This document shows, piece after piece, positions 17,768-60,928 of a stretch of DNA of 64,000 nucleotides; the stretch's first letter is position 1; every line of letters starts with the position of its first letter. The stretch covers positions 1-64,000 of the forward strand of contig JALHMO010000007.1 in NCBI GenBank assembly GCA_022844015.1, written 5' to 3'. This DNA is from Reyranella sp. Its GTDB lineage: Bacteria; Pseudomonadota; Alphaproteobacteria; Reyranellales; Reyranellaceae. Both the position numbers and the translations under genes were made by a program. The notes beneath the pieces are model-generated. The model made no database searches. It was not told the DNA's origin and worked only from the letters and a program-made list of their open reading frames with translations.

Positions 17768-17922
17768 GCCGAGAGCAGCACCGCCTCGCCGCCATCGCGT
17801 CGGCCGACGTCGCCGGCTACTCCAGGCTGATGGGTCGCGACGAGAGCCAAGTGGGGCCCGAGCTTGAGGTCCGCTATGTTCTTGAGTTCGCAGGCTTTGC
17901 TGGTTGCGGGGGCGGGATTTGA
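17764..17922 (+). pseudogene. Collapsed second cyclase/TolB gene copy
   Basis: Immediately after the intact cyclase gene, overlapping it by ATGA, a 52-codon frame starts MSREQHRLAAIASADVAGYS, the same N-terminus as the intact gene. After residue 29 it jumps to GPELEVRYVLE, which corresponds to the AGELGVRYVLEG block about 225 residues further on in the intact copy. The frame then runs into a tRNA-like sequence. So a tandem paralogue has lost its middle and everything downstream. The end coincides with the edge of the prophage-like module, pointing to an insertion or excision event. Confidence 0.7.
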
Positions 17923-17938
17923 ACCTGCGACTTTCAGC
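17901..17938 (-). other. tRNA 3'-end-like fragment, candidate attachment-site scar
   Basis: Read on the minus strand, these 38 bases give CTGAAAGTCGCAGG, TTCAAAT, CCCGC and CCCCGCAACCA: a T-arm, acceptor 3' strand and CCA resembling the end of an initiator tRNA-Met. One T-stem pair is mismatched (A opposite C) and the 5' half of a tRNA is absent. Such 3' fragments are left at the distal end of elements integrated into tRNA genes. The intact tRNA would then lie on the minus strand beyond the far end of the element; it is not in this window. Confidence 0.5.
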
Positions 17939-17946
17939 TTGCGAGT

Positions 17947-18117
17947 TCACGAACTCCCGGCCTGCGCCAGGGTGACGAGGTGGAGCACCATGTCGAAGGT
18001 CAGGTCGTCCTTGAGCGCATGATGCTCGGCGATGTCCCGCATCGTATCGGCCGACAGGGGAGGCCTCCCCGCGGCAGCGCGTCGGCTGGCGATCAGTTCC
18101 AAAGTCTCGTCGTCCAT
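17947..18117 (-). CDS. Small hypothetical protein, 56 residues, last gene of the phage-type cluster
   Basis: Starts at ATG 18117 with GGGAGG upstream and lies 2 bp after the stop of the preceding gene, so it is translated as part of the same minus-strand operon. The sequence MDDETLELIASRRAAAGRPP then a helical segment is acidic and soluble, with no recognised domain. It is the final open frame before the tRNA-like fragment at 17.9 kb. A role is unknown; position at the element edge could suit a small accessory factor, but nothing in the sequence shows this. Confidence 0.5.
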   Translation of the reverse strand: MDDETLELIASRRAAAGRPPLSADTMRDIAEHHALKDDLTFDMVLHLVTLAQAGSS

Positions 18118-18119
18118 GA

Positions 18120-18527
18120 TCAGCCTCCCGGGGTGCCGGGCAGGAAGCAGTAGACTAGCCCCGCGAGGCTGGCGCACACATGGGCGTAGAGGGGCTCGCG
18201 GTTCAGGGCGGGATCGAGCACGACATGATGCGGCACGACCTGCCAATGACCATCGATCAGGGCCCGCCATTGGCCGTCGTCGCCCCGGAATGCCCGGGTC
18301 GGCCGGCAGTCACCCTCGACACCTCCGTCCGGCGCCACCCGTCGCCCGCTGCAACACGACAGTCCCGTGCCCGGCTGCTCGAGAGCCCGGTACCAGTCAT
18401 GACGCTCGCCGTGGCCCTGCCCGTGCCCGCCGTCTTGCGCACGCGCCGGCCTGGCAATCCCGATGGCTCCGATCAGGGCAATCACCAGAAGCAATACTCC
18501 AACTGCCAATATGCTCGGTTGCCGCAT
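18120..18527 (-). CDS. Small exported protein with SCC...DC cysteine motif
   Basis: 135 residues from ATG 18527, preceded by AAGGAGGGTGGA. A clear signal peptide (MRQPSILAVGVLLLVIALIGAIGIARPARAQ) ends in a signal-peptidase I site ARA|Q. The mature part has HDWYRALEQPGTGLSCCSGR, then GDCRPTRAF, GQWRALIDGHWQVVPHH and a C-terminal CASLAGLVYCF. This W-Y-x2-L-x2-P-x-T-G-x-S-C-C pattern recurs in small exported proteins of alphaproteobacteria and their phages whose function is unknown. The paired cysteines suggest disulphides or metal binding in the periplasm. It lies in a compact minus-strand operon of the phage-type module. Confidence 0.65.
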   Translation of the reverse strand: MRQPSILAVGVLLLVIALIGAIGIARPARAQDGGHGQGHGERHDWYRALEQPGTGLSCCSGRRVAPDGGVEGDCRPTRAFRGDDGQWRALIDGHWQVVPHHVVLDPALNREPLYAHVCASLAGLVYCFLPGTPGG

Positions 18528-18597
18528 TCCACCCTCCTTGGTGTCTGCGTCGGTTAAACGGGCTTCGCTGCGCGTCGGCGGCGTGATCGCTCGCCGG

Positions 18598-18852
18598 TCA
18601 GTGCCTGGGGGGCTCGTCGGGAAATACCGCCGTGTCGCCGCGAAGGGGTTGCAGCGCGCGGGCATTGCCGGGCTCGGCCGCGCTATCGTGGCCGCCGACC
18701 CCGAGGATCCACACGACATACTCCTCGGCCAGCCGGATGGCGTCCTGCGGATTGATCGTGCCGGCGTCACAGTAAGCCAGCATCCGAACGGCGAGATGCA
18801 GGCACTCACTGCGCAGGGCAGCCAACGGCGAAATCTCCTCGTTTGTACTCAT
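18598..18852 (-). CDS. Hypothetical protein, 84 residues
   Basis: Begins at ATG 18852, overlapping the stop of the preceding gene by 4 bases (ATGA), a strong sign of translational coupling. The protein is acidic and helical (PLAALRSECLHLAVRMLAYC ... PQDAIRLAEEYVVWILG) with no membrane segment or signal peptide. I recognise no family. Its place between two other small phage-type genes suggests an early-region accessory protein. Confidence 0.55.
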   Translation of the reverse strand: MSTNEEISPLAALRSECLHLAVRMLAYCDAGTINPQDAIRLAEEYVVWILGVGGHDSAAEPGNARALQPLRGDTAVFPDEPPRH

Positions 18853-19691
18853 CGGTCCTCCTGGGTTGGATCGTGTGGATGATCGCCTTCCGGGCGATTC
18901 GCCTCGACCTTGAGGTCGGCCTCGGGAAAGCTTCGTTCGAGCAGCGACAGGGCGCCAACCAGGCCGATCGCCGCGAGGTGACGCTCGACCACCTTGCCGG
19001 GCGGGCCGAGGTAGTTCCGCGCGACATGCGCCAGGGCGGTCGAATCGTCGGCACTTCCGGCGTCTGCCCTCGCCTTCGCCAGGGCCTGGTCCAGGAGTCG
19101 CAGCTGCTCGTCATCGAGAGCAAACGTGCGGACCGTGGTTCGACTAGGCGCGACATCCTCGAAGCGCGACGGAGGCTCGTCTCGGCATGCCTGGACGAGG
19201 TCGCGCAGCCTCGCCACCGTCATGCCGGGCGCAGCTGCGCGCTCGAGCCACTCCGCGGCATTGCCGCTCTCCAGGACGGGTGCCAGTTCCTTGAGCTTGG
19301 TCCAGCCAATCGGCTTCAGCTCGTCCCAGCCGAGCCCCAGGCCCGACACCGTGTTGTAAATCTGGACGAGATAGTAGGCCTTGCGCCGCTTGAAGCCGTG
19401 GCGCCTCTCGACATAGGACGCGAAATCGACGTAGCCCGCGCCAGCATACCATCTCTCGGCAAGAATCCTGGCCAGGACCCCGCCCAGCCTGAAGGCATTG
19501 TAGTCGGAGGCATCGGCGAGCTCGCCCACCAGCGCGTCCGCGCGCGCGGCGGTCAGGTCCTCGATCTCGCGTGCCGTTCGAGCCAAGGCATCGGGCCCGA
19601 GCACCTCGCCGTCGAGGCCGGCCAGCGACACGATCTCGGGTTCCGGCGAATCGGCATTTCTCGGCAGGGCCAGCGGCGAACTGGTGGTCAT
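18849..19691 (-). CDS. Phage/plasmid-type protein, putative HTH-like, 280 residues
   Basis: A soluble protein of 280 residues. The middle (about 65-150) reads GGVLARILAERWYAGAGYV, then SYVERRHGFKRRKAYYLVQIYNTV, then WTKLKELAPVLESG, an arrangement of short helices seen in ParB-like or replication-accessory proteins that gauge DNA through helix-turn-helix modules. I cannot name the family with certainty. The C-terminal third is acidic helix. It is co-oriented and coupled with 18598-18852 downstream and lies 27 bp after the gene at 19719-20039. A role in element maintenance or early gene control is inference. Confidence 0.5.
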   Translation of the reverse strand: MTTSSPLALPRNADSPEPEIVSLAGLDGEVLGPDALARTAREIEDLTAARADALVGELADASDYNAFRLGGVLARILAERWYAGAGYVDFASYVERRHGFKRRKAYYLVQIYNTVSGLGLGWDELKPIGWTKLKELAPVLESGNAAEWLERAAAPGMTVARLRDLVQACRDEPPSRFEDVAPSRTTVRTFALDDEQLRLLDQALAKARADAGSADDSTALAHVARNYLGPPGKVVERHLAAIGLVGALSLLERSFPEADLKVEANRPEGDHPHDPTQEDR

Positions 19692-19718
19692 GCGGCGGCT
19701 CTCCTCACCGGTCGGATC

Positions 19719-20039
19719 TCAGCCGACGAAAGCCTGCGTCGGTGCGGCGAATGCCGGCGGACAGCGAACGACGCCGTGCGCGGACTTGAACTGATCCAGC
19801 GCCTCGAGCTCCTGGTCGCGCGTAAGGCGGGGGAAAGCCTGAAGCCGCAGCAGCCGTGCCCGATGAATGAGCAGCAGGGACGAGCGGCGCTTGAACTCCA
19901 CGGTTCCCTGTCGCTCGCTCAGGTTGCGCGCGCTCCACGAGAGCTGGGTCGACGGAAGTGGCGCAGGCAGGTCCGGCTCTTGCCAATCGAGCAGCATGAT
20001 GAAGCGCCCCTCCTTGGGCTGTTCGAGCACGGGCAGCAC
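19719..20039 (-). CDS. Hypothetical phage-type protein, about 92-106 residues
   Basis: The frame opens at GTG 20039, but an internal ATG at 19997 (MLLDWQEPDLPAPLPS) has GGAGGGG upstream at a usable distance and may be the true start, giving 92 residues. The protein is soluble with a basic helical centre (FKRRSSLLLIHRARLLRLQAFPRLTRDQELEALDQFK) and no recognised domain. It is the first gene of the leftmost minus-strand operon of the module. The upstream 260 bases contain only promoter-like sequence. Confidence 0.5.
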   Translation of the reverse strand: MLPVLEQPKEGRFIMLLDWQEPDLPAPLPSTQLSWSARNLSERQGTVEFKRRSSLLLIHRARLLRLQAFPRLTRDQELEALDQFKSAHGVVRCPPAFAAPTQAFVG

Positions 20040-20163: not shown

Positions 20164-20227
20164 GAGCTTCCGGGAGCAATCGGGATCAGTGTCCACAACC
20201 AAGCCTGATCCGCAGGCCTCTGCCTCC

Positions 20228-20239
20228 AAATGCGCATTT
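20228..20239. promoter_or_regulatory. Palindrome AAATGCGCATTT upstream of the Rrf2 gene
   Basis: A perfect 12-base palindrome lies 61 bases before the Rrf2-type regulator's start. The TGC/GCA cores resemble the NsrR half-site TGCAT only partly. It could be an autoregulatory operator of cassette 1. Confidence 0.3.
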
Positions 20240-20299
20240 CGGATGTTTGTTAGGCAGGCTCTTTGCTAGAAGCTCAGCACCGACCCCGGCGGAGATCCG

Positions 20300-20785
20300 A
20301 TGCGCCTTACCTTCTACACCGACTACGCGCTCCGGATGCTGCTCTATCTCGGGACGCGGCCGAACCGGACCGTGACGATCAGCGAGGTCGCCGAGGCCTA
20401 CGGTGTCTCGAAGAACCATCTCATGAAGGTCGCCACGCATCTCGCCGCCGGCGGCTACGTCACCGCCACCCGCGGCAATGGCGGCGGGATGCGGCTCGCC
20501 CAGAAGCCCGAGGACATCGTCGTCGGCGAGGTCGTGCGCCACACCGAGAACGATTTCGACCTGGTCGGGTGCTTCGAGGCCGGCGGGCCGGGATGCCGCA
20601 TCGAGTCGGCCTGCCTGCTGCGAACATCGCTGCGCAAGGCGCTGGAAGCGTTCTTCCGCGTGCTCGACGACTACACGCTGGCCGACCTCCTGGTCACGCG
20701 GCCGCTGATGGCCGAGTTGTTCCATCTCGACGAGCCGGCGGAAGGCCCGGCCAGCCCGGTGCTCGGCAAGCGCCGCGCCTGGTGA
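20300..20785 (+). CDS. Rrf2-family regulator, NsrR-like (nitric-oxide sensing Fe-S repressor)
   Basis: 161 residues. The N-terminal winged helix starts MRLTFYTDYALRMLLYLG, contains ISEVAEAYGVSKNHLMKVATHL as recognition helix region and GGYVTATRGNGGGMRLA as the wing. Three cysteines, C91, C99 and C105 (in the CFEAGGPGC ... C loop), match the Fe-S ligand cluster of NsrR, which releases DNA on reaction with NO. The first gene of a seven-gene plus-strand cassette inserted between minus-strand phage-type genes; it probably controls the cassette. A candidate operator follows its stop codon. Other Rrf2 members (IscR, RsrR) have different cysteine spacing. Confidence 0.82.
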   Translation: MRLTFYTDYALRMLLYLGTRPNRTVTISEVAEAYGVSKNHLMKVATHLAAGGYVTATRGNGGGMRLAQKPEDIVVGEVVRHTENDFDLVGCFEAGGPGCRIESACLLRTSLRKALEAFFRVLDDYTLADLLVTRPLMAELFHLDEPAEGPASPVLGKRRAW

Positions 20786-20790
20786 ACTCA

Positions 20791-20813
20791 AAGTGGCATA
20801 ATTGATGCATCTA
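20791..20813. promoter_or_regulatory. Candidate NsrR operator
   Basis: Between the regulator's stop and the Rieske gene lie AAGTGGCAT and, after a 5-base spacer (AATTG), ATGCATCTA. This approximates the inverted NsrR consensus (AAGATGCAT / ATGCATCTT), with the right half better conserved. It starts 6 bases after the nsrR-like stop codon and 46 bases before the oxygenase start. Confidence 0.45.
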
Positions 20814-20858
20814 TGATTTCGCCGGTCGCGAGGCCGGCGGTCTCATGGAGCCGCGTCA

Positions 20859-22124
20859 ATGTCAGCCAGCGCCAGACACCCGCATCCCGACGTCGCCGCC
20901 GTCCTCGATGGGCTCGACGCCTCCGACCAGCCGGTCGAGGATGCCCGAGTCTTGCCGCCCGAAGCCTACAGGTCGGCCGCCTTCTACGAGTTCGAGAGGG
21001 AGGCGGTGTACATGCGCTCGTGGCTGTGCGTCGGGCGCGCCCAGCAGATTCCCGAGCCGGGCGACTACATGGCCCTCACCCTGGCCGACGAGCCGATCCT
21101 GGTGGTGCGCGGCGCCGACCGCGCGATCCGCGCCATGTCGGCCGTTTGCCGTCACCGCGGTCACACCCTGAGGGAAGAGTGCACCGGCAATACCCGCCTC
21201 TTCACCTGCCCCTACCATCGCTGGAGCTACGACCTCGCCGGCGCGTTCGCCGGCGCGCCCCACATGGCGAAGACCGTGGCCCTGGCTGAGCTGAAGAGCG
21301 AGGCGGGCCTGCCGCAGCTGCTTGTCGAGCTGTGGTACGGCTTCATCTTCGTGAACTTCGATCCGGCGGCGCGGCCGCTCGCCCCGACCATGGCCAAGCT
21401 CGAGCCTTACATGGCGGGATACGACCTCGACAACATGGCCACGGTCGAGCCCGAGATCACGACCAAGCCGTTGCCGTGGAACTGGAAGATGCTGCTCGAG
21501 AACTACATCGAGCCCTATCACACCCAGTTCGTCCATCCGGTCATCCACGACTTCGCGCCGAGCGTGGGCGTCGAGTTCGACCCCTGGCGCGGGCCGGACG
21601 ACAACGTGATCGTGCGCTACGTGCCCTTCCTCGAGCGCGACGGCAGCCTCACAGAGAAAGGGTGGGCGGCACCGGCACTGTTCCCGATCATCGAGACGCT
21701 GAGCGATAAGCAAAGGAACCGGGTCGGCTTCGGCATGGTGCCGCCCAACATGAACATCATCTTCATGCCCGACATGCTGTGCTACGGGCTGGTCTTCCCG
21801 CAGGGCCCGAGCAGCCTGAAGGTCGGCGGCGGCCTGTTCACCGCCGGCGGCTGGTGCATGCCGAAGAGCACGGTCGCCTTGCCCGACTTCCATGCCCGCG
21901 CCGGCCGGATGATGGAAGGCTCGCGGCAGCTCGGCGAGCAGGACACCACGGTCAACCTCGCCATGCAGCGCTCCAAGCACTCGCGTTTCGCGCCGCGCGG
22001 CCGCTTCAGCTACCTCGAGGAGACATTGAGCCAGTTCAATCGCTGGCTCGCCGTGCGCTACCGCGCCGAGGCGCGACGGCGCGGCTATCCGATGTCCGCG
22101 CCGACGCGGGCCGCCGCCGAATGA
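20859..22124 (+). CDS. Rieske-type aromatic-ring-hydroxylating oxygenase, alpha subunit
   Basis: A 421-residue Rieske non-heme iron oxygenase alpha subunit. The [2Fe-2S] Rieske ligands are C97-x-H99 (VCRHRGH) and C117-x2-H120 (CPYHRW). The mononuclear iron motif is ENYIEPYHTQFVH, giving H221 and H226, with the third acidic ligand expected near the C-terminal third. Family members hydroxylate or demethylate aromatic, heterocyclic or quaternary-amine compounds using electrons from a separate reductase. No reductase or beta subunit is next to it, so it would borrow a reductase from elsewhere or belong to a class of alpha-only monooxygenases. Its stop overlaps the amidase start (ATGA). Confidence 0.9.
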   Translation: MSASARHPHPDVAAVLDGLDASDQPVEDARVLPPEAYRSAAFYEFEREAVYMRSWLCVGRAQQIPEPGDYMALTLADEPILVVRGADRAIRAMSAVCRHRGHTLREECTGNTRLFTCPYHRWSYDLAGAFAGAPHMAKTVALAELKSEAGLPQLLVELWYGFIFVNFDPAARPLAPTMAKLEPYMAGYDLDNMATVEPEITTKPLPWNWKMLLENYIEPYHTQFVHPVIHDFAPSVGVEFDPWRGPDDNVIVRYVPFLERDGSLTEKGWAAPALFPIIETLSDKQRNRVGFGMVPPNMNIIFMPDMLCYGLVFPQGPSSLKVGGGLFTAGGWCMPKSTVALPDFHARAGRMMEGSRQLGEQDTTVNLAMQRSKHSRFAPRGRFSYLEETLSQFNRWLAVRYRAEARRRGYPMSAPTRAAAE

Positions 22125-23329
22125 CCTCGCCGGCCGATTTCGACGATTTCGCCGGCGCCTTCTGCCCGCACGGCCGCTTCGCCCTCGCGGGGGCGGCGAG
22201 CGGCCCGCTGGCCGGCCTCACCTTCGGCGTGAAGGACTTCATCGACATCGAGGGCCATGTCACCGGCGCCGGCAATCCGCGCTGGCTGGAGACACACCCA
22301 CCGGCGTCGGCGACGGCACCGTGCGTTCGGACGCTGCTCGCCGCCGGCGCCACCATGATCGGCAAGACGATCAGCGACGAGCTCGCCTACAGCCTGAACG
22401 GCGACAATTTCCACTACGGCACGCCGAGGAACAGCGCGGCACCCGACCGCGTGCCGGGCGGCTCGTCGAGCGGCTCGGCCTCGGCGGTTGCGGCGGGACT
22501 GTGCGACTTCGCGCTGGGAACCGACTCGGGCGGCTCGGTACGCATTCCCGCGAGCTACTGCGGCGTCTACGGAATACGAACCACGCAGGATCTCATCCCG
22601 CTCGACGGCATCGTGCCGTTCATGCCGAGCCTCGACACGCTGGGCTGGTTCACCCGCGACGCGCGCCTGTTCGCCGGGATCGGCCGGCTGCTGTTGCCGC
22701 CGGCGCCGGCCGACGCACCGCCCTTGCGCCGACTGATGCGGTCGAGCGACGCCGAGGCCGAAACCGACGCGGCCTCGCTCGAAGCGCTGCAGCACGCCTT
22801 CGCCGCCGTCACGGTCCGGCTCGGAAGCGCCGAGGCAGTGCGCGTGGCACCCGACGGCCTGGAAGCCTGGCGCAACCAGTTTCGCCTGCTGTCGGCGGCC
22901 GAGACATGGTCGATCCACGGCGCCTGGATCGAGACCGCGAAGCCGGTATTCGGGCCGGCGATCGCCGACCGCTTCGCATTCGCCCGCGAGGCGTCGGGCC
23001 TCGACGTCGCTCCGGTGCACGCGGCACGCGACGCAATCCGCCGGCGCCTGCGCGAGATCGTGCAGCACGACGGCGTGGTCTGCCTGCCGACCTCTCCCGG
23101 CCCCGCCCCGTTGCGCTCGGCAACCGGCGAGGCGGTCGAATCCTTCCGGCAGCGCGCGCAACGCCTGACCTGCATCGCCGGGCTGAGCGGGCTGCCGCAG
23201 GTCAGCCTGCCCGTCGCCACGGTCGACGGCGCACCACTCGGACTTTCCCTGATCGGCCCGCCGGGCCGAGACCTCGACCTGCTGGCGCTCGCCGTCGAGC
23301 TCGCAGGGTCCCCCATCGCCGCTCACTGA
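22121..23329 (+). CDS. Amidase-signature family hydrolase
   Basis: About 402 residues from ATG 22121, translationally coupled to the oxygenase gene. The Ser-cisSer-Lys triad is visible: Lys38 in FGVKDFID, the cis-Ser within GGSSSGSA (115-117) and the nucleophile Ser139 in TDSGGSVRIP. YCGVYGIRTT follows as in other family members. It hydrolyses a C-N amide bond, and the length is shorter than GatA (about 480). With the oxygenase and the importer downstream, a substrate such as a ring-cleavage amide is plausible, but its identity cannot be read from the sequence. Confidence 0.88.
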   Translation: MTSPADFDDFAGAFCPHGRFALAGAASGPLAGLTFGVKDFIDIEGHVTGAGNPRWLETHPPASATAPCVRTLLAAGATMIGKTISDELAYSLNGDNFHYGTPRNSAAPDRVPGGSSSGSASAVAAGLCDFALGTDSGGSVRIPASYCGVYGIRTTQDLIPLDGIVPFMPSLDTLGWFTRDARLFAGIGRLLLPPAPADAPPLRRLMRSSDAEAETDAASLEALQHAFAAVTVRLGSAEAVRVAPDGLEAWRNQFRLLSAAETWSIHGAWIETAKPVFGPAIADRFAFAREASGLDVAPVHAARDAIRRRLREIVQHDGVVCLPTSPGPAPLRSATGEAVESFRQRAQRLTCIAGLSGLPQVSLPVATVDGAPLGLSLIGPPGRDLDLLALAVELAGSPIAAH

Positions 23330-23342
23330 AAACGGAGGCATC

Positions 23343-24326
23343 ATGCGCAGCGACCGCAGACGACTTCTCACCGCTCTCGCAACGGGCACGGCCCTGGGCA
23401 TCCTGATCGGCGCCGGGGCACCGGCGGGCGCCCAGGACATCAAGGTTGGCATCCTCGTGCCGGGCTCGCAGACCGACAAGGGCTTCATGCAGTCGGCCTA
23501 TGGCGGCGCGAAGAAGGTCGAGCAGAACTATGGCGCCAAGGGCAAGGTGCAGCTGATCGAGAACATCAACTACGCCGACATGGAACAGGCGCTGACGCAA
23601 CTCGCCACCGACAACAAGTTCGTCGTCTCGGTGAGCGGCGCCTCGCAGGCGGCCATGACCAAGGTGTCCAAGCGCTTCCCCGGCGTGAAGTTCAACCTGG
23701 TGGGCGGCGCCAAGATCAGCGAGGCGACCAACATGGCGCAGTACGACATGCGCCAGGCCGAGATCAACTTCATCTCGGGCGCGGTCGCGGCCCTGTCGAG
23801 CAAGTCCGGGACCGTGAGCTTCGTGGCCGGCCTCGAGATTCCGGGCGTCGTCAATGCCAGCAAGGAATTCGAGAAGGGCGCCAAGTACGCGCGGCCCGAC
23901 ATCAAGACCATCGTGGTCTTCACCGGCAGCTTCGACGACGTGGCCAAGGCCAAGGAAGCCACCCTGGCGACCATCTCGCAGGGCGCCGACGTGCACGTCC
24001 ATGTCATGAACAAGGGCCTGCCCGGCATCGAGCAGGCCGCGCGCGAGAAGGGCACGCGCATGATCGGCGGCCCGTTGCCGGCATGCGGCAGCGATCCGCT
24101 CTACATCGCCTATTCACGCACCGGCGTCGGCTATCTCGTCGACTACGCGGTGAAGGCCTTTGTCGACGGCACCTGGAAGCCGGGTCCTGCCTCGTTCGGC
24201 CTCAAGGCCGGCCCGGAGGCGAGCGACATGGTGCTGTGCGGCACCCCCGACCCGGCGATCAAGGCCAAGGTCGACGAGATCAAGAAGGCGATCATCGGCG
24301 GCCAGATCGTCACCCTGGATGGTTGA
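23343..24326 (+). CDS. BMP-family ABC transporter substrate-binding protein
   Basis: A 327-residue periplasmic lipoprotein-like/Sec- or Tat-type exported protein: MRSDRRRLLTALATGTALG with adjacent arginines before the hydrophobic stretch, cleaved near AGAQ. The mature protein has the Bmp/PnrA/Med fold signatures KVGILVPGSQTDKGFMQSAYGG, VVSVSGASQAAMTKVSKRFP and SFVAGLEIPGVVNA. Members of this family bind purine nucleosides and related bases. It is the first component of a full ABC importer whose ATPase and two permeases follow. A strong hairpin directly after its stop codon probably boosts its expression over the rest. Confidence 0.9.
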   Translation: MRSDRRRLLTALATGTALGILIGAGAPAGAQDIKVGILVPGSQTDKGFMQSAYGGAKKVEQNYGAKGKVQLIENINYADMEQALTQLATDNKFVVSVSGASQAAMTKVSKRFPGVKFNLVGGAKISEATNMAQYDMRQAEINFISGAVAALSSKSGTVSFVAGLEIPGVVNASKEFEKGAKYARPDIKTIVVFTGSFDDVAKAKEATLATISQGADVHVHVMNKGLPGIEQAAREKGTRMIGGPLPACGSDPLYIAYSRTGVGYLVDYAVKAFVDGTWKPGPASFGLKAGPEASDMVLCGTPDPAIKAKVDEIKKAIIGGQIVTLDG

Positions 24327-24330
24327 CCTC

Positions 24331-24390
24331 GTCTCGCGGCCCGGTCTGTCGCAGCCGCCTGATCCCGGCTGCGACAGACCGAGCCGAGAC
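24331..24390 (+). promoter_or_regulatory. Large intra-operon stem-loop between binding protein and ATPase genes
   Basis: CGGTCTGTCGCAGCCG (24342-24357) pairs perfectly with CGGCTGCGACAGACCG (24366-24381) around an 8-base loop, and outer GTCTCG (24331-24336) pairs with CGAGAC (24385-24390). It begins 4 bases after the binding-protein stop and ends 9 bases before the ATPase ATG. There is no T-run, so it is more likely an mRNA stabiliser or partial terminator that lowers downstream expression. Confidence 0.8.
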
Positions 24391-24399
24391 GAGGCGCGA

Positions 24400-25929
24400 A
24401 TGCCGCTCCTGCTTGCGGCATACGGCGTCGGCAAGCGTTTCGGATCGCTCTCCGCGCTTGCCGACGTCGACCTCGCGCTGCGCGCCGGCGAGATCCACTG
24501 CCTGCTGGGCGAGAACGGTGCCGGCAAGTCCACGCTGTGCAATCTGCTGTTCGGCCTGCAGGCGCCGGACACTGGCCGCCTGGAGCTTCTCGACCGGCTC
24601 TATCGGCCGCGCCGGCCGGCCGATGCCCTGGCGGCCGGAATCGCCATGGTGCATCAGCATTTCAGCCTCGTCCCCGAGCTGACGGTGCTCGAGAACCTCT
24701 GCCTCGGCAGCGGCTGGCGCCGCTTCGACCGGGCGCGCGAACGCTCCCGAATGGCGGCGACGGCCGAGCGCTTCGCGATCGACGTGCCGTTCGATGTCCT
24801 GGTCGAGACCCTGTCGGTCGGCGAGCGCCAGAAGGTCGAGATCCTGCGGTGCCTGGTGCAGGAGCCCGAGATCGTCGTCCTCGACGAGCCGACCGCGGTG
24901 CTGCCGCCCGGCGAGATCGACGCGCTGCTCGGGTTGATCAGACGGATGGCCGAGACCGGCAAGGCGATCCTGCTGGTGACACACAAGCTCGCCGAGATCG
25001 AGCGCGTCGCCGACCGCATCACCGTGCTGCGACGGGGGCGGGTGACGCTGCAGGCGGCCGGCCGGGAGGTCGGCCGGCAAGCGCTGGCAACCGCCATCGT
25101 CGGCGACGCCGTCGCCGGGATCGACGTGACCGCCGACCGCGGGCCGCACCGCATCGTCCGCGGCCAGTCCGGCGTCGCCGTGCCGCCAGCCGCCCTGATG
25201 CTGGACGGCGTCGTTCTCCTCGATCGCCTTGGCAGCCGACGGGTCGACAACCTGACGCTGATCGTCGCCGCCGGCGAGATCGTCGGCGTCGCCGGTGTCG
25301 AGGGCAATGGCCAGAACGAGCTGGCGCTCGCCCTTTCCGGGCTGATGCTCTTCGCCCGCGGCCGCTACTTCGTTGCCGATACCGAGCTCACCGCCGCGTC
25401 TCCGGCGATGGTCTCGGCGGCCGGCGTCGGCATCATTCCCGAGGATCGCCACGCGCTCGGCTGTATCCTCGGCATGGCAGTCGACGAGAACATTTTCCTC
25501 GGCGCCCTCGGCGAGTACCGGCTCGGCCCCTTCGTGAATCGCAAGGCGATGCGGCAGGCGACTGGCGAGCTGATCCAGCGCTTCGACATTCGCTGCGAAG
25601 GCCCCGCCGCGCCGTTCGCCAGCCTGTCCGGCGGCAACCAGCAGAAGGTCGTGCTGGCTCGCGAGATCACGCTCAACACGCGGCGCCTGCTGGTCGCCGC
25701 GCAGCCGACACGCGGCCTCGACATCGGCGCCACCCGCGCGACCTACGGCCACATCCAGTCCGCGGCGCGCGACGGCGCGGGCGTGCTGCTCGTCTCGAGC
25801 GAGCTCGACGACCTGATGGCGATCTGTGATCGCATCGTGGTGATGTATCGTGGCCGCATCATCGGCGAGCAGACTGCTGGCGCCTACGATCGCACGGCGC
25901 TGGGTGCCCTTATGGCAGGGCACGCGTGA
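24400..25929 (+). CDS. ABC transporter ATP-binding protein with two nucleotide-binding domains (BMP/nucleoside type)
   Basis: 509 residues from ATG 24400 (an in-frame ATG at 24319 would read through the hairpin and is less likely). Two fused ABC domains, as in the ribose/purine-nucleoside importer class. Domain 1 has Walker A GENGAGKST (38-46), the Q-loop VHQHFSLV, signature LSVGERQKV and Walker B IVVLDEPTAVL. Domain 2 has the degenerate P-loop GVEGNGQNE, signature LSGGNQQKV and TRGLDIGAT, typical of the second half in this class. It energises import by the two permeases downstream. Its stop overlaps the next gene by GTGA. Confidence 0.9.
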   Translation: MPLLLAAYGVGKRFGSLSALADVDLALRAGEIHCLLGENGAGKSTLCNLLFGLQAPDTGRLELLDRLYRPRRPADALAAGIAMVHQHFSLVPELTVLENLCLGSGWRRFDRARERSRMAATAERFAIDVPFDVLVETLSVGERQKVEILRCLVQEPEIVVLDEPTAVLPPGEIDALLGLIRRMAETGKAILLVTHKLAEIERVADRITVLRRGRVTLQAAGREVGRQALATAIVGDAVAGIDVTADRGPHRIVRGQSGVAVPPAALMLDGVVLLDRLGSRRVDNLTLIVAAGEIVGVAGVEGNGQNELALALSGLMLFARGRYFVADTELTAASPAMVSAAGVGIIPEDRHALGCILGMAVDENIFLGALGEYRLGPFVNRKAMRQATGELIQRFDIRCEGPAAPFASLSGGNQQKVVLAREITLNTRRLLVAAQPTRGLDIGATRATYGHIQSAARDGAGVLLVSSELDDLMAICDRIVVMYRGRIIGEQTAGAYDRTALGALMAGHA

Positions 25930-52505: not shown

Positions 52506-52641
52506 TTCTCGTCCTCCATTAACAGTGTTCGTGATAGCTGGCGGCGACAGCTGGCTATCACAAAAGACTTATAAGTCCGATTACGGAATCGACCAGTTGT
52601 GAATCCCCTGGCCACAACGCTTTGGCTCTACTCGCGAGCCA

Positions 52642-52998
52642 CTACCTGGTTATTTGCTGCGTTACTCGGAACCTCCCCTCGATGACACGGCTAGTTCGGC
52701 CCGCGGCATCTACATACTGCAGATCGTAAACAGCCTCACGCGTGGGACTGAACGTTGCCGTCACAGTGGCAGGAACAAATACCAGAAACTGTCCGCTAGG
52801 ACCTTCGATTTGGATCCCACCCTTATTGCCACTATCTATATCGAGAAAGTACGACTGCGCACTAATGCTCCAGCGCACTTGCATGCGAGCAAACCCGCTT
52901 GTGATGTCAACGGGGATGTCCGTGTCACCGCGTCGATAGTTCACGACGAAGGCCAGATCGGCACCCTGTTCACAGACCAAGTCAAACTTCGTTGCCAT
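52642..52998 (-). CDS. Ig-like phage structural protein, 118 residues
   Basis: FDLVCEQGADLAFVVNYRRGDTDIPVDITSGFARMQVRWS then GGIQIEGPSGQFLVFVPATVTATF and YDLQYVDAAGRTSRVIEGRFRVTQQ form an Ig/BppU-like beta-sandwich seen in phage fibre attachment and baseplate proteins. Starts at ATG 52998, 2 bases after the endolysin stop (TAACATGG). Proposed to link fibres to the virion; not proven. Confidence 0.6.
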   Translation of the reverse strand: MATKFDLVCEQGADLAFVVNYRRGDTDIPVDITSGFARMQVRWSISAQSYFLDIDSGNKGGIQIEGPSGQFLVFVPATVTATFSPTREAVYDLQYVDAAGRTSRVIEGRFRVTQQITR

Positions 52999-52999
52999 G

Positions 53000-54088
53000 T
53001 TAGGCTATGCCTTTCCGGTGCATCTCCACACGCTTCTTTTCAATCCTTCGGAAGTAGACAAAGGCAACGACAGCAAGAAGGACGGCAACTCCCCCAAATC
53101 CCATAAGTAGCGCTGGCGTGACACCGGCAAACATGCCTACAAATGCCTCCTTTAGGGCTTGAAGGCCTGTCATGATGCCAGTTGCAATGCCAGCGCCCCA
53201 CGCGATTCGTTGTCCTACTCGCGCGCTCTTGAGAATTGCGCTTTCCGATAGATGCGCCCGCACTACATTGCCGGTGTCGGTCATCTCATAGCCAGGTGGC
53301 GGCACGGGGACCATTGGTGGAATCGGCTCCAGCACTGCGTGCGGACGGTCTCCTGTTTCACCGTGGATATTGCCCGTCGAGGGATCTTCGACCGGCCTCG
53401 GAATCGCGGCAACTGCCGTTGGTCGAGCACTGGTTTGGATCAGATTGGAGTGCGTCAAGGCATCCCGAAGTCGTCTGAGATAGGTGTGACGCGATGCAAG
53501 GCCGATCGTTCCACCATTCACCTTGATCACGCAGCGGACAAAGTCACCCGCGTCTGCGAGCTCGTTGCATCCCATACGAGACCAGTACTCCGCGGCTGAC
53601 ATTGCGCCGTAGTCAGGTTGCAGAAGCAGATCGGGGTCACTTTCGTCCGGCAGTCCCAGCGCTCTAAAGAACCGAAGATAGTTGGTTCGCCCAGTGATCT
53701 GCATAGGCCCGCGACCGCGATACTTCCAGCCGTCCCCCGGCTGAACGTTTCCCATGCGATAGCCAGGCGGCCGATGGATGTCTGCGTAGATGTAGTTTCC
53801 AATTGCTTCAGCACCTAACCGAGCCAAGTCGTACGCTTTCTTTGGATTCGCCTTGAACATGGATGGAAAAACCTCGATGAGGCGCTCACCTGAGTAATTG
53901 AGATTCTCCTGCTTGGCTTGGAGTTGTCCGGTTTCCTCAGCCACGTTCGCCAAGAAGTAGGTGATTCGATCTGGAGTAGTTATGCCATAGGACTCCATTG
54001 CCCTAACTAGAGCCGGATACCAGGTATGCAAACGCCCTAAGGATCGAGCAATGGGAAAGGCGAGGCCCAGTTGATACTCGGTAATCAT
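53000..54088 (-). CDS. GH19-type endolysin with C-terminal membrane segments
   Basis: 362 residues. Residues about 1-200 match GH19 chitinase-like endolysins: RITYFLANVAEETGQLQAKQENLNYSGERLIEVFP, then GWKYRGRGPMQITGRTNYLRFFRALG and DFVRCVIKVNGGTIGLASRHTYLRRLRDAL. The catalytic acid is within ANVAEETG. A Pro-rich linker (PIPPMVPVPPPGYE) leads to two hydrophobic segments near residues 295-315 and 325-345 (GIATGIMTGLQAL; PALLMGFGGVAVLLAVVAFVYF). A fused holin-like or membrane anchoring part is unusual for this family. It degrades host peptidoglycan at lysis. Confidence 0.82.
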   Translation of the reverse strand: MITEYQLGLAFPIARSLGRLHTWYPALVRAMESYGITTPDRITYFLANVAEETGQLQAKQENLNYSGERLIEVFPSMFKANPKKAYDLARLGAEAIGNYIYADIHRPPGYRMGNVQPGDGWKYRGRGPMQITGRTNYLRFFRALGLPDESDPDLLLQPDYGAMSAAEYWSRMGCNELADAGDFVRCVIKVNGGTIGLASRHTYLRRLRDALTHSNLIQTSARPTAVAAIPRPVEDPSTGNIHGETGDRPHAVLEPIPPMVPVPPPGYEMTDTGNVVRAHLSESAILKSARVGQRIAWGAGIATGIMTGLQALKEAFVGMFAGVTPALLMGFGGVAVLLAVVAFVYFRRIEKKRVEMHRKGIA

Positions 54089-54877: not shown

Positions 54878-56350
54878 TCATCCGGTCGCCGCCTCGCCTG
54901 GATGGCCGGCGCCCTCCGCTCCGGCCCGGGAGAACTCGACATCGAGGCCGGCCACCCGGTTGACGGCCTCGATCAGGCTTTGCGGCTCGACGCCCGGGAG
55001 CTTCGCGGCCAGCCCGAGGGCGGCGATCTGCTGGGAGACGTCGGTGAGCTGTAGCGGCCGCGACCTGAAGACATAGCCGGCGCCGCCCAGCGCCGGCAGG
55101 AGCTTGCGCGTCACGATCTCGTCGAAGTGCGCGCGCTCCGGCCCGAACACCTGGGCCTCCGCCGCCAGACAGCTCGCATAGGCCGTGGCGAAGTTGAAGT
55201 CGGCGGACTTGCCGAGGAACAGCGGCGAGAAGCGGAACGCCCGCAGGATCCGCTCGAAGCATTTGTCGTCGTACCTCTCGAACATCGCATCGCCCGAACG
55301 CTCGTGCCCGAACCGCTCGACCGCGACGCTGACCCCGCCGGCGCGGTCGAGCATGCCCTCGCTCGACGGTACCTCGATGATGGCGACACGCTGCTTGTGG
55401 CCCGGCGCGAACTGCTGCTCGAGCGCCTGGCGGGCGTCGCGCGCCACCGAGCCGCCCTGCACGATCAGCAGCGCCGGCGGCAGGCCGCCCGCCCGTAGGT
55501 AGGCGATGTTGGCTTCCTCGGCGGCGCGCGAGCCGATCACCGAGGGGATCTGGCCCTCCCAGCGCGGCACGCCGTACGGGCTGTCGGGATCCTGCCCGGT
55601 CTGGAAATAGATCAGCTCGGTGGCGCGGTCCTGCGGCGCGACGGGCTGGTCGGCCGACGCCCATCGCCCGCTATGCTTGTCGAGCTCGCGCGAGGCGCCG
55701 AACTCCCGGAAGAACAGCAGCTTGCCGCCCATCACCTGGCAGAAGCGCCGCTCGCGCAGCATGACCTCGTAGGAAGCGGCGGCGCCGTTGCGCGTCACCG
55801 TCCGCGCGACCGCGACCGGCGCGTCGAGCCGGACGATGCGAAAGGTGCGCGCCGGCGTGCTGCGCAGGAAGACGACCTCGCCCTCGAGGTTGCGCATGAC
55901 CTCGAGGAAGCCGTAGCCCACCCGCTCGAGATCGCGGCGGAGGTCGCGCCGCATGGTGACGAACGACTGCCCCGGAAACGGCTCGTCGAAGAAGGCGGCC
56001 AGCCGCGCGACGACAGGGTCGTCCCGCTCGTTGGCGTCGAGGTCGGGGTCCTTGTTCGCCTTCTCGATCGCATGGCCGGTCCCGTCCGTGTTGACGACCA
56101 TCGCCTCGATGCAGGCCCCCAGCACGTTGCTTTCCTGCGTCAGCCGCTCCAGCACGCGCGGCTCGTAGGGCGGCCTCAGCACCTGGCCCGACGCCTCCAG
56201 GCTGCTGCCGTAGAACGGGCTGAACTCGTCCTCGACCTCGCGCGTGTTGGTGGCGATGACCGGCCGTGCGGCCGTATCCAGCATTCGCACCCTCACCTCG
56301 CGCTTGCCGCGGGTGGGCGCCGTCCGCCTCGAGCTGCTGTCGTCGGTCAC
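54878..56350 (-). CDS. Portal protein (PBSX/HK97-type)
   Basis: 490 residues from GTG 56350. Features of the PBSX-type portal family: EDEFSPFYGSSLEASGQVLRPPYEPRVLERLTQESNVLGACIEAM near the start, FFREFG, PYGVPRWEGQIPSVIGSRAAEEANIAYL and RFSPLFLGKSADFNFATAYASCLAAEAQVFGPERAHFDEIV. It forms the twelve-fold vertex ring through which terminase pumps DNA. Between it and the major capsid gene lie lysis, fibre and rod genes, so the usual portal-protease-capsid order is broken by insertion. Confidence 0.9.
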   Translation of the reverse strand: MTDDSSSRRTAPTRGKREVRVRMLDTAARPVIATNTREVEDEFSPFYGSSLEASGQVLRPPYEPRVLERLTQESNVLGACIEAMVVNTDGTGHAIEKANKDPDLDANERDDPVVARLAAFFDEPFPGQSFVTMRRDLRRDLERVGYGFLEVMRNLEGEVVFLRSTPARTFRIVRLDAPVAVARTVTRNGAAASYEVMLRERRFCQVMGGKLLFFREFGASRELDKHSGRWASADQPVAPQDRATELIYFQTGQDPDSPYGVPRWEGQIPSVIGSRAAEEANIAYLRAGGLPPALLIVQGGSVARDARQALEQQFAPGHKQRVAIIEVPSSEGMLDRAGGVSVAVERFGHERSGDAMFERYDDKCFERILRAFRFSPLFLGKSADFNFATAYASCLAAEAQVFGPERAHFDEIVTRKLLPALGGAGYVFRSRPLQLTDVSQQIAALGLAAKLPGVEPQSLIEAVNRVAGLDVEFSRAGAEGAGHPGEAATG

Positions 56351-57731: not shown

Positions 57732-59672
57732 TCAGCCCGCGTCGGTCGCGATCGACAGGCCGTGCCTCTCCGAGCCGGCGCGGCCGGCGGCCAGGGAGCG
57801 GGCGTCCCGGTCGGCCAGCCTGCCGGCGATCTGCGCGAGGGCGCCGCGCATCGGCACGCCATGGCGCACCCATGTCTCGCGGCGATAGCTGAGGCCGAAA
57901 ACGACGCCCGCCATGGCGTCGGCGCAGTCCTTCGAGAAATGGGGCGGGTGGTCGATCCGGCCGGTCCGCGGGTCGCGTTCCAGCCTGACCAGCTCGGCCT
58001 GGGCCCGGGCATGCGCCGGCGCGGCGACCCGTCCGTCGTACAGCGCCGTCTTGGTCACGTCGTAGGGCAACGGGTCGGCATCGACCGACTGGGGGCCGGT
58101 GCAGAACCCCTGCTGGCGCAGCAGCTGCATGCTGTCGCGCGACTGGAAGGTGTCGAAGGTGATCCATTTCACGGTCACGCCGAGCTCGGCCAGCCGGTAG
58201 AACAGCCGACGGATGCTCTCGAGCTCGATCTCGCCATTGCGCGGCGGCGCGACCTCGAGGACGGCATCGAAGCAGACATGCGGCAGGATCTCGGCGACGC
58301 CCTCGCCGCGCGCCACCTCGACGAAGCGATCGACATGGCCGATGGCGATGCCCGCGCTGTCGCCCGACACCGCGAGATCGACATGGGCGAACCGCGGCTC
58401 GCCCGGGCGCTCGATGCGCCCGGGATAGATCTCCAGCCGCGAGGTGACGAAGTCCGTGCGCTCCAGCGAGAGGATCGACCGGCGCACGCCGAACACCCGC
58501 GCGACGGCGGCGGTGTCGACCAGGAACGGATGCAGCGCGAAGGTCGAGGCGCCGGCGATGTCGCGGATGGCCGACAGCAGGTCGTGCTCGAACTCGGAGC
58601 GAAACTCCACCGGGATGCGCTTCACCAGGTGCCGGTCCGCGTCCGCCACCGGCTCGCCCGGCTCCATCAGGCGCGGCTTGCGCGCGAGGTCGCCGAGGAA
58701 CAGCCGGAAGCGCTTTCCGCCGTAGGTGCCGGGCGGCTTTATCTCGAACACCGTCTTGTCGTAGACGAAGATCCGCGTGCGCCCGGTCTCGGCGATCTCG
58801 CGCCCGGCCTCGGCGATCTTGAGGTCGGTGAACTCTCCGGGATAACGCTTCGAGGAGACGAGGCAGACCATGCCGGGCAGCCGCTCCGCCGTCAGGAACC
58901 GGCTCTTCCGGCGGCGCACCAGGCCGTTGTACATCTCGAGCGCCTGGTCGAAGACGCCGCCGTCGGCGGCCTGCGCCGAGCGCCCGACGACGCGCATGAA
59001 GTTGATCTCGTCGATCAGCGCGTTCAGCACGTTGGCGCCGATCGCGGCGTGCACGCTGCCGCTCAGCGGCCGCACCACGATGCGGCCGGGAAAGATCATC
59101 TCCGCTTCCAGCCCGCGATCGAACGGAAAGCAGCGCATGAAGTAGGGCGAGCTCGCGATCATGGCGCGAAAGCGCGCGTAGTCGTTGCTCTTCGCCACCT
59201 GGGCGTTGAGCGACTGGAACACGGTCAAGAGCTCGGCCGCCGGATCCTGGGCGAAGGTGCGATGCGGGTCCTTCAGGCGCGACAGGACATAGATCTGGTA
59301 GGCCATGGTGAGCAGCGCCGCGGTCGTCTTGCCGGAGCCGATGCCGCCGGTCAGCACGCTCTCGACATAGCGGCCCGAGTTGAGCTCGATCAGGGCGGCC
59401 ATGATCGCCGGGTAGACGATGCCGCGCCGGCCGAGGAAGCGGCGGCCCTCGACGAAGGTCTGGATGTCGACCGGCAGGCTGGCATAGTGCGACGCCGTCG
59501 CCTCGAGGCCGCGGAAGTGCGTGGCGGCACGGACGATGTAGTCGTGGCGCTCACCGGGCGGCACGATCCGGTGGCCTGCAGCATCGATGTCCACGGAGTG
59601 CGCCAGGACCTCCGGGCCGTTCTCGACCTCGTCCTGGAGCAGGGCGTGGGCCGCGCGGAACTCAGGCGTCAT
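57732..59672 (-). CDS. Terminase large subunit
   Basis: 646 residues. The ATPase half has Walker A TGGIGSGKTT (109-117) and an IDEINFM Walker B near residue 238. The nuclease half shows acidic motifs HVDLAVSGDSAGIAIGH, WITFDTFQSRDSMQLLRQQG and KDCADAMAGVVFGL, the RNase H-like pattern. It powers DNA packaging and cuts concatemers. Its start overlaps the small subunit gene by 11 bases. The large size and extended N-terminus are common in terminases of large tailed phages. It is the best marker of a real phage module. Confidence 0.92.
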   Translation of the reverse strand: MTPEFRAAHALLQDEVENGPEVLAHSVDIDAAGHRIVPPGERHDYIVRAATHFRGLEATASHYASLPVDIQTFVEGRRFLGRRGIVYPAIMAALIELNSGRYVESVLTGGIGSGKTTAALLTMAYQIYVLSRLKDPHRTFAQDPAAELLTVFQSLNAQVAKSNDYARFRAMIASSPYFMRCFPFDRGLEAEMIFPGRIVVRPLSGSVHAAIGANVLNALIDEINFMRVVGRSAQAADGGVFDQALEMYNGLVRRRKSRFLTAERLPGMVCLVSSKRYPGEFTDLKIAEAGREIAETGRTRIFVYDKTVFEIKPPGTYGGKRFRLFLGDLARKPRLMEPGEPVADADRHLVKRIPVEFRSEFEHDLLSAIRDIAGASTFALHPFLVDTAAVARVFGVRRSILSLERTDFVTSRLEIYPGRIERPGEPRFAHVDLAVSGDSAGIAIGHVDRFVEVARGEGVAEILPHVCFDAVLEVAPPRNGEIELESIRRLFYRLAELGVTVKWITFDTFQSRDSMQLLRQQGFCTGPQSVDADPLPYDVTKTALYDGRVAAPAHARAQAELVRLERDPRTGRIDHPPHFSKDCADAMAGVVFGLSYRRETWVRHGVPMRGALAQIAGRLADRDARSLAAGRAGSERHGLSIATDAG

Positions 59673-60066
59673 CGTCGGCAGGGTCGGAAGCCGCTGCCCC
59701 TTTGGACTCGGTCTCCGGAGCCATGTCGCTGGTGACCGATGAATAGCTCATTCGCTCCAGATCGGCCTGCGAGAACGCCGGCAAGGACCTTCGGGAAGGA
59801 CCCGGCTCGGTGGCCCAGCGACCCGCCGCGACCCGTTCGAGATGGCCGAGGTCGAACTGGAGCTTGGTGAGGCCGTCGAGCGCCTTCGAGTAGACGCCGA
59901 GGTGCTTCGTCGCGTCGCCGCCCGACGGCGGCTCGCCCGCTTCCGCCTCCAGCGCGTCGAGGAACCGCAGACGCAGGCGCTGGCAGAGCTCTTCCTGCGC
60001 GGCCAGGACGTCGAGCGGCTTGGCTCCGTCGGGCCTGGTTGGCCACTCTCTGTCGGTTCGCGACAT
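59662..60066 (-). CDS. Putative terminase small subunit, 134 residues
   Basis: Contains LDVLAAQEELCQRLRLRFLDALEAEAG, KHLGVYSKALDGLTKLQFDLGHLER and a Ser/Pro-rich acidic tail. No clear DNA-binding family is recognised, but the gene overlaps the large terminase gene by 11 bases and has the expected size. The identification rests on position. Confidence 0.5.
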   Translation of the reverse strand: MSRTDREWPTRPDGAKPLDVLAAQEELCQRLRLRFLDALEAEAGEPPSGGDATKHLGVYSKALDGLTKLQFDLGHLERVAAGRWATEPGPSRRSLPAFSQADLERMSYSSVTSDMAPETESKGAAASDPADDDA

Positions 60067-60069
60067 GGA

Positions 60070-60558
60070 TCAGAATGCAACGACGTTGGTACGGTAGACG
60101 AAGCTGGGACCGGCCGCGTCGGCGGCGACGAGCGTCGCCGGCAGCGCAACGAAGCCGTGCGGCCGGATCAATCCCAGCACGCCGAGACCGCGCTCCGGGC
60201 GGCTGCTGCAGTCGACCGCGACGACCGATGCGCTCAACACCGGCTCCCTGCCCGTCAGCCCGCGGTGGCGCAGGCAGAACGGACGAAAAGCGATCTCGTA
60301 CCAGAAATCGACGCCGCGGCGGCGCAGCTCCGCCCGGGACAGGCCGATGCCGTGGCGGGCCAGCGGCTTGCCGAGGTCGCGGGCGAAGCGCAGCGAGCCG
60401 GCCCGGCTGTAGCCGACGGCGATGCTGTCGAAGCGGCGGCGCCGCAACGAGCCGTGGAGCGTGTCGAACGCCGCCGACAGCATCGCCTCGAGGGTGAAGT
60501 CGCGCGGCACCACATGGGCCACGCCGCCCGAGCCGCCATCCTGTGCAATTGATTGCAC
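60070..60558 (-). CDS. Hypothetical phage protein, 162 residues
   Basis: From GTG 60558, ending 3 bases before the terminase small subunit ATG, hence co-translated. The sequence (PRDFTLEAMLSAAFDTLHGSLRRRRFDSIAVGYSRAGSLRFARD) suggests an alpha/beta DNA-binding-like protein with an Arg-rich centre. No family is recognised. The start codon lies in a 16-base palindrome. Confidence 0.5.
   Translation of the reverse strand: MQSIAQDGGSGGVAHVVPRDFTLEAMLSAAFDTLHGSLRRRRFDSIAVGYSRAGSLRFARDLGKPLARHGIGLSRAELRRRGVDFWYEIAFRPFCLRHRGLTGREPVLSASVVAVDCSSRPERGLGVLGLIRPHGFVALPATLVAADAAGPSFVYRTNVVAF
60543..60558. promoter_or_regulatory. 16-base palindrome over a phage gene's start codon
   Basis: GTGCAAT TG ATTGCAC, with 7-base arms. 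The second arm includes the GTG start on the minus strand. It could be an operator or an RNA hairpin hiding the start codon. Confidence 0.35.
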
Positions 60559-60567
60559 GGCCGCGCC

Positions 60568-60819
60568 CTAGGGCCGGAACCAGAAGTAGGCGACCAGGGC
60601 GGACACGACGGCGAGCGCCATCGCCTTGCCGAAGGTCACCAGCATGCTGCGCTTGATGGCGCGGTAGGCGTCGATCAGGGAACGCAGCTCGGTCAGGTCG
60701 CGCAGCGCGTGCTGGTCGCCGAGGCCGATGGCGGCGAGCGCCTGCCGAGCGCCGCGCTGCGAGGCCTCCTCCATCAGCGAATGGAGCTGCGTCTGGGTGA
60801 AGGTGTAGGATTGGTCCAT
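60568..60819 (-). CDS. DUF6127-like membrane protein, first gene of the packaging operon
   Basis: 83 residues from ATG 60819 (MDQSYTFTQTQLHSLMEEASQRGARQALAAIGLGDQHALRDLTELRSLIDAYRAIKRS). The pattern matches the phage DUF6127 family: an N-terminal helix with QxGAxxALxxxGLxDxxAxxDLxELRxLL, then one C-terminal membrane segment (KAMALAVVSALVAYFWF). Such proteins are suspected of a holin-like or membrane-related role. It is the 5'-most gene seen of the rightmost phage operon. Confidence 0.65.
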   Translation of the reverse strand: MDQSYTFTQTQLHSLMEEASQRGARQALAAIGLGDQHALRDLTELRSLIDAYRAIKRSMLVTFGKAMALAVVSALVAYFWFRP

Positions 60820-60928
60820 GACGGGCGCCAGTGATACCTGGAGCGCTCCGAAGCGACAGGGCACCCGGCGGCGGTGGCTGCATTCTGCGGCCATCCCGCG
60901 AACGGCCATGGGCGGGGCTGTTCCGATA

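Follow-up and report, generated by a model that had tools for sequence, protein, structure and literature searches.

A resident RcZahn-like prophage probably infiltrated by host operons in Reyranella

The window, the whole 64,000-nucleotide stretch of Reyranella sp. DNA that was analysed, comprises bases 1-64000 of a 73-kb contig (C7) of the assembly G000, which has a total size of 6.76 Mb and is 83% complete. The window contains a minus-strand siphovirus module related to Rhodobacter phage RcZahn, and two plus-strand metabolic cassettes are located between the phage genes. We propose, with a probability of about 0.7, that the module is a long-resident, non-autonomous prophage derived from an RcZahn-like siphovirus of ~70-100 kb, which has been infiltrated by host operons and partly domesticated. 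This explanation is based on the gene order of the window, on related loci from other Reyranella genomes and viral contigs, and on the selection acting on the phage genes.

Host operons within a siphovirus module

The phage genes were identified using PHROGs, Pfam, and tblastn searches with RcZahn and the 70-kb viral contig G423. They form a single minus-strand siphovirus module that is colinear with both references. PHROGs identified the terminase, portal, head protease, virion protein (major capsid protein, MCP), head-tail adaptor, tail protein, tape measure, J, minor tail proteins, fibre, and deoxynucleoside monophosphate (dNMP) kinase. The MCP and terminase are of the RcZahn type. Phage homology is proven from ~60.9 to 27.9 kb and again at ~18.85-20.04 kb. 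The initial annotation extended the phage from 60.8 to 17.9 kb, but the open reading frames (ORFs) at 17.6-18.8 kb have no phage match. The presence of the two plus-strand cassettes between minus-strand phage genes was corroborated.

Both cassettes are complete operons of the host genus, and both run in the opposite direction to the phage genes. Cassette 1 (20223..27902, plus strand, genes at 20300-27898) encodes an Rrf2 regulator, Rieske oxygenase, amidase, BMP binding protein, ABC ATPase, and two permeases, as identified by Pfam. The regulator was originally labelled NsrR-like, which is not established, since the RirA and NsrR models match it about equally, both below their cut-offs. The orthologue of cassette 1 at G447:C23:198540-207029 has 79-81% DNA identity, with homology borders at 20223 and 27902. 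It adjoins the genes pcm-surE-serS-tatCBA, named by eye from their translations, and there are no phage genes in the 32 kb that were read. Cassette 2 (38812..41505, plus strand, Pfam) consists of a 2Fe-2S subunit (38843-39352) and a molybdopterin subunit (about 39351-41492), a pair that was assigned at the family level to xanthine dehydrogenases; the narrower IorAB/NicAB-like label of the initial annotation is putative. It has 87-89% DNA identity to copies in G011, G004, G445, and G438, with homology borders at ~38812 and 41505. As judged from their predicted enzymes and transporters, the cassettes probably serve nutrition by the uptake and oxidation of a nitrogen-containing compound and the hydroxylation of a heteroaromatic compound or aldehyde.

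Cassette 2 separates the tail tube gene (41872-43137) from a tail assembly chaperone gene (38124-38558), in agreement with the initial annotation. The gap between the tube and chaperone genes is 3317 bp long in the window, 5332 bp in the Reyranella genome G035, and 1956 bp in the locus L093, which is an 88% sibling of that of G035. A search of relatives for the phage without the cassettes showed that this site is free of cargo in RcZahn (334 bp), the locus L015 (351 bp), and G423. Within the phage family, the gap is mostly 85-450 bp long, and some phages have 800-1430 bp. In the contig G422, at least 10 kb of host genes follow the tube gene, and the chaperone gene is missing from the contig. 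The site in G035 is filled by DUF2628/Bug/MFS/XRE genes, unlike the cargo of the window. The tube-chaperone gap is a recurrent insertion site with differing cargo. Another gap, in front of J, contains a pair of host genes in G035 and in L167, which is part of genome G021, as both give identical blast segments against G035; there are no host genes at this position in L166, L168, L170, or the window. A 6-kb gap between the tail tube and chaperone genes was also seen in the more distant viral contig L122.

A chimeric assembly could in principle have produced the interleaving. The right edge of cassette 2 is abutted by a palindromic host repeat resembling a miniature inverted-repeat transposable element (MITE; 41558..41790), which is up to 233 bp long, has inverted ends, and is present in ~40 or more copies in G000, with related copies in congeners. 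Furthermore, the assembly is divided into 240 contigs, and a second partial terminase gene (G000:C202:1-369), 88% identical to residues 523-645 of the window terminase, is positioned at a contig end; G000 may contain a second related element. However, the order and strand of the phage genes continue on both sides of both cassettes, and the other three cassette junctions contain no copies of known repeats. The same architecture was found in G035, the single-contig genome G021, L093, and G422. Because phage gene order and strand are kept across the inserts, independent genomes share the architecture, the tube-chaperone site is empty in relatives, and homology of the cassettes to congeners begins and stops at whole-operon borders, the misassembly suspected in the initial annotation is very unlikely.

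Interleaved loci in other Reyranella genomes

In G035, the same phage is colinear and dispersed from 47.5 to ~159 kb of one contig, or to 166 kb if the gene encoding a DUF6127 protein is counted. In addition to the tube-chaperone insert and the pair before J, the gaps between its phage genes contain DinB/EthD genes, a DoxX-MerR-DoxX group, and a LysR gene beside that of DNA polymerase; these names are readings of translations and not results of database searches. Larger host blocks of about 24, 25, and 13 kb are also located between the phage genes. The locus L093 shares the LysR and DUF2628 genes with G035, lacks Bug/MFS/XRE, and contains a single DoxX gene, which by gene content reads as a stepwise gain or loss of inserts. 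Across the relatives, the inserts (LysR, DoxX, MFS, GroEL, DinB, and others) have no common theme, which argues against the earlier suggestion that the prophage had been turned into a catabolic island. A host sensor-like gene that adjoins the tail fibre gene of a phage fragment, L005:9919-12051, has an orthologue with 84% DNA identity among the interleaved host genes of G035 (134146-136245).

The genome G021 contains an orthologous locus of ~110 kb at the same chromosomal place as in G035, including the flanks. The two loci share the terminase and other phage genes, as well as the host genes in between, for example that of a GroEL homologue. Relative to G035, the G021 locus has a deletion of ~15.5 kb from TAC2 to the portal (C1:2661411-2661938, L178), in which chaperone 1, the tail tube, capsid, and protease were lost. 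Despite this deletion of the capsid region, the portal, terminase, and DNA polymerase genes of G021 are intact and constrained. Both loci retain DNA polymerase, primase, and helicase, of which the polymerase and helicase are measurably constrained.

Synonymous divergence (dS) and the ratio of non-synonymous to synonymous divergence (omega) were calculated by NG86 with Jukes-Cantor correction, and the intervals given are from gene bootstraps. Between G035 and G021, fourteen phage genes have a dS of 0.326 (0.265-0.384) and an omega of 0.216 (0.168-0.244), and fifteen host genes have a dS of 0.282 (0.226-0.353) and an omega of 0.206 (0.159-0.262); the mis-framed host gene TonB129 was left out. 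The values for phage and host genes are alike, and therefore the phage genes were inherited vertically together with their neighbours and constrained like them. The interleaved locus of G035 and G021 is vertically inherited, and its phage genes are under purifying selection. Between G035 and L093, the omega of phage genes is 0.157, and the dS of the flanking LysR gene is equal to theirs (0.286 vs 0.279). Seven head and tail genes compared between the window and its closest relative, the locus L013, have an omega of 0.173 (0.137-0.211), which alone does not prove residence since the split, because no host genes are seen on L013, a short contig. The ratio calculated between the window and G035 was not used for conclusions, as synonymous sites appear saturated at a GC content of third codon positions (GC3) of about 0.9.

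These observations bear on the possibility that the window holds a transmissible temperate phage with an outsized load of morons or auxiliary metabolic genes among its late genes, perhaps maintained in a plasmid-like form as DLP5. The relatives of the module are complete phages of about 96-102 kb, and one of them, DLP5, has been described as a phagemid (PMC5834331). The cargo is confined to discrete gaps and encoded on the other strand, some relatives are free of cargo, and the distribution of the phage is patchy. Nevertheless, G035 and G021 share the chromosomal locus with its flanks and have host-like dS, and host blocks of tens of kilobases are positioned between the phage genes. No match to the tyrosine integrase family (PF00589) was found on G000:C7 or G035:C42, where serine recombinases were not searched for, and no att-like direct repeats of at least 12 bp join the two ends of the window. 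The replication genes of G035 were not found in G000. We consider a transmissible phage improbable, and the cargo-carrying element envisaged in the initial annotation is in this sense not supported, given the vertical inheritance of the sister loci and the failure to find a tyrosine integrase or att-like repeat.

Losses from the window copy

The DNA polymerase gene, which is located beside the portal in relatives, is absent from the window locus according to tblastn. The interval from the dNMP kinase to the gene-66 pair, which contains cassette 1, lacks the helicase, primase, and single-stranded DNA-binding protein genes. When the replication genes of G035 were sought in the G000 assembly, only one weak helicase match was found (30% identity), which is probably the host DnaB. 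An HK97-gp10-like tail gene, located between the adaptor and minor tail genes in relatives, is missing from the window and L013 and reduced to a fragment in G035. The tape measure ORF (35921..37807, minus strand, PHROG 1292) is shortened to 628 codons, compared to 861-1254 residues in relatives and 1678 residues in RcZahn. The homology of the dNMP kinase (27650..28471, minus strand, PHROG 139) stops at 27923, and its reading frame continues for ~90 codons within cassette 1. The remaining phage genes are mostly intact and do not show the pattern of pseudogenes or relaxed selection. The element is a resident prophage without autonomy. Its earlier description as decayed is not supported as it stands: some essential-type genes were lost, but most of the remaining genes are intact and under purifying selection, with omega values of 0.17-0.22.

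An ordinary cryptic prophage undergoing neutral decay and random insertions of host genes would account for the loss of essential-type genes such as those of DNA polymerase and the HK97-gp10-like protein, the 15.5-kb deletion by which G021 lost its capsid genes, and the clipped dNMP kinase. Immobile ("grounded") prophages have been proposed as hotspots that gain inserted genes (PMC6379469). Neutral decay is nevertheless unlikely, given omega values of 0.16-0.22 and ORFs that have remained intact since before the split of G035 and G021.

Some of the same features point towards a domesticated locus resembling a gene transfer agent (GTA), the particles of which would package host DNA; such a locus would be freed from having to fit into its own capsid, so that operons could accumulate. 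Vertical inheritance with an omega of about 0.2, equal to that of neighbouring host genes, the lack of replication genes at the window locus, the dispersal of phage genes among host genes, and the shortened tape measure are consistent with this possibility. So is GC3, which is 0.90-0.91 in the loci of G035, L093, L014, and the window, compared to 0.81-0.82 in RcZahn and L015. On the other hand, DNA polymerase, primase, and helicase are still present in G035 and G021, with constraint on the polymerase and helicase, and G021 lacks the capsid, tube, and protease while its terminase and portal stay constrained. In addition, the HK97-gp10-like tail gene is missing from the window and reduced in G035, and the locus is not broadly conserved in the genus. 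We regard a GTA-like locus as possible but rather unlikely.

Proposed mechanism

The infiltration of a resident prophage, which we favour, might have proceeded as follows. A large RcZahn-type phage would have become resident in the Reyranella chromosome and lost functions needed for autonomy. Host operons would then have entered intergenic gaps piecemeal, as self-contained units; insertions breaking virion genes would have been selected against, and purifying selection would have retained the virion genes. Cassette 1 may have replaced the replication arm between the dNMP kinase and the gene-66 pair, clipping the 3' end of the kinase gene, and cassette 2 may have entered the tube-chaperone gap. 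Oriented against the phage genes, each cassette would function as a self-contained unit, like any other host operon.

Constraint at the level of host genes favours a function of the virion genes, and those retained probably still serve the cell, either as particles or as a domesticated gene set. Their function appears dispensable, because G021 lost its capsid genes and the occurrence in the genus is patchy. Particle production in a GTA-like role is possible. It is conceivable but rather unlikely that a lineage of Reyranella turns large RcZahn-type phages into a novel GTA-like system of independent origin. In such a system, host operons would spread the phage genome over ~110 kb, selection at the level of host genes would maintain the virion genes and, in some species, also the replication genes, and flanking host operons would be mobilised.

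Several observations weigh against this explanation. The capsid gene is present in just two of the 65 Reyranella genomes surveyed. In the tree of MCP sequences, the window groups with L013 and L014 beside the cargo-free L015, away from G035 and L093, and the window phage may be a younger, separate lysogen. Vertical inheritance was demonstrated for the locus of G035 and G021, and is a hypothesis for that of G000, the flanks of which are not shared. Likewise, the absence of replication genes is firm only at the window locus, as G000 is 83% complete. A module of three tail or unknown genes and an endolysin-like gene (51377..54088, minus strand, PHROGs 8123 and 1084) has a GC content of 56%, compared to about 69%, and its homologues in G422 have higher GC, which suggests a fairly recent exchange with another phage. 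Because the window, L013, and L014 group with the cargo-free L015, apart from G035 and L093, infiltration by host operons probably occurred in at least two phage lineages of Reyranella. An empty chromosomal site for the phage of the window was not found, as both flanks aligned in no congener, and the neighbourhoods of recD2 and the cyclase differ.

Other features of the window

The phage module, encoded entirely on the minus strand, has at one end the gene of a DUF6127 protein (60568..60909, Pfam PF19622), the orthologues of which are located near the same end of the loci in G035 (165732-166028) and G021 (2703977). The large terminase subunit (57732..59672, PHROG 2) is 62% identical to that of G423, 52% to that of RcZahn, and 67% to that of G035. 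It is followed by two small phage genes (56509..57124) with homologues at 12776-13394 of G423, and by the portal (54878..56350, PHROG 12), 69% identical to that of G423. A gene at 53.0-54.1 kb, previously described as a lysis gene, is homologous to positions 25185-26318 of G423, but has no Pfam match. The capsid maturation protease and an adjoining small head gene (46753..47881, PHROG 15223) precede the MCP (45671..46666, PHROG 1623), which is 63% identical to that of RcZahn. The head-tail adaptor and minor tail gene (44259..45370) were identified by PHROGs and tblastn. The tail tube and an upstream tail gene (41872..43911, PHROG 290) correspond to RcZahn genes 24 and 25. The chaperone genes (37774..38558) are 60% and 55% identical to those of L016, and 34% and 32% identical to RcZahn genes 27 and 28. 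The distal tail genes (28583..35918; PHROGs, Pfam, and tblastn) encode DUF2460-like, DUF2163-like, JAB/NlpC-P60, TipI-like, J, and fibre proteins. The two end genes (18849..20039) are an RcZahn gene 66-like gene, 42% identical to its homologue in G423 and 35% to that in RcZahn, and a small neighbour; the same pair is present at 47.5-48.5 kb of G035.

Repeat comparison identified two more host-type palindromic repeats, one between tail genes (44074..44224) and one between phage genes (48104..48272). According to a reading of coordinates, ten of the sixteen repeat copies in 140 kb of G035 are located in gaps that touch a phage gene. The shared repeat at 44.1 kb was considered as proof of a common residence of the window and L013 phages, and was rejected because the aligned gap sequences differ.

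The nearest relatives of the window are short metagenome contigs. A scan of genome contigs for the J protein found zero relatives, and a near search among phage records returned nothing. Intact terminases of the window type (60-62%) are present at G004:C236, G013:C11:91717-95554, and G020:C58:23594-27302. These lone terminases are preceded by ParB-like and small genes. The surrounding sequence that was read lacks the rest of the phage genes, and they seem to be part of different elements.

A long ORF at the start of the contig (1-3344) consists of internally repeated units with 70-79% DNA identity. Beside the phage end, at 61790-62542 and C7:63935-71670, there are an AbiEi-type antitoxin gene, a DUF3037 gene, and a HipB-like regulator, which possibly make this a defence-type neighbourhood.

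Comparison with known systems

Usually, the conversion of a phage into an asset of its host can be observed only once it is complete, while the Reyranella loci display stages: the cargo-free G423, L093 and G035 differing by single inserts, the vertically inherited interleaved locus of G035 and G021, the loss of the capsid in G021, and the window, which has virion genes but no replication genes. Since phage and host genes are equal in dS and omega, domestication becomes a claim that can be tested. The loci are also a warning for prophage prediction, since pipelines for viral contigs cut them into fragments; several of the IMG/VR records used here look like fragments of interleaved loci. The literature searched contained no account of comparable prophages in Reyranella. 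What is new is the extent to which phage and host genes are interleaved, the repeated occupation of the tube-chaperone site by differing cargo, and the direct evidence for co-divergence of phage genes and interposed host genes under equal constraint.

The MCP of the window is 50-63% identical to those of RcZahn (MW677529), Rhizobium phage RHph_TM16, and Stenotrophomonas phages DLP_3 and DLP_5 (Delepquintavirus). The window and RcZahn have the same order of terminase, portal, protease, MCP, adaptor, tail tube, chaperone, tape measure, and J. RcZahn and its kin are complete phages of 96-102 kb; RcZahn has a full replication module, and both of its cassette sites are free of host operons. The window locus thus has the gene order of RcZahn/Delepquintavirus-like phages but not the complete genome, as it lacks DNA polymerase, helicase, and primase.

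Grounded or cryptic prophages are likewise immobile and gain genes, whereas in Reyranella the virion genes are intact and constrained, and in the relatives large operons alternate with phage genes over ~110 kb. Morons such as HK97 gp15 are host-like genes between phage genes (PMC6379469); the Reyranella inserts, by contrast, are multi-gene operons of 2.7-7.7 kb, occupy several gaps, and differ among relatives at the same gap. GTAs, or viriforms, are phage-derived, vertically inherited entities (PMC9662315), and the locus of G035 and G021 resembles them in its phage origin, vertical inheritance, and constrained head-tail genes. It appears to differ in belonging to another type of phage than the structural cluster of RcGTA, with which RcZahn reportedly shares only tail-tip genes (PMC8601537); it also differs in the replication genes kept by the relatives and in its occurrence in only part of the genus. 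We classify the element as a prophage that is resident and partly domesticated, rather than as a GTA or an active cargo phage.

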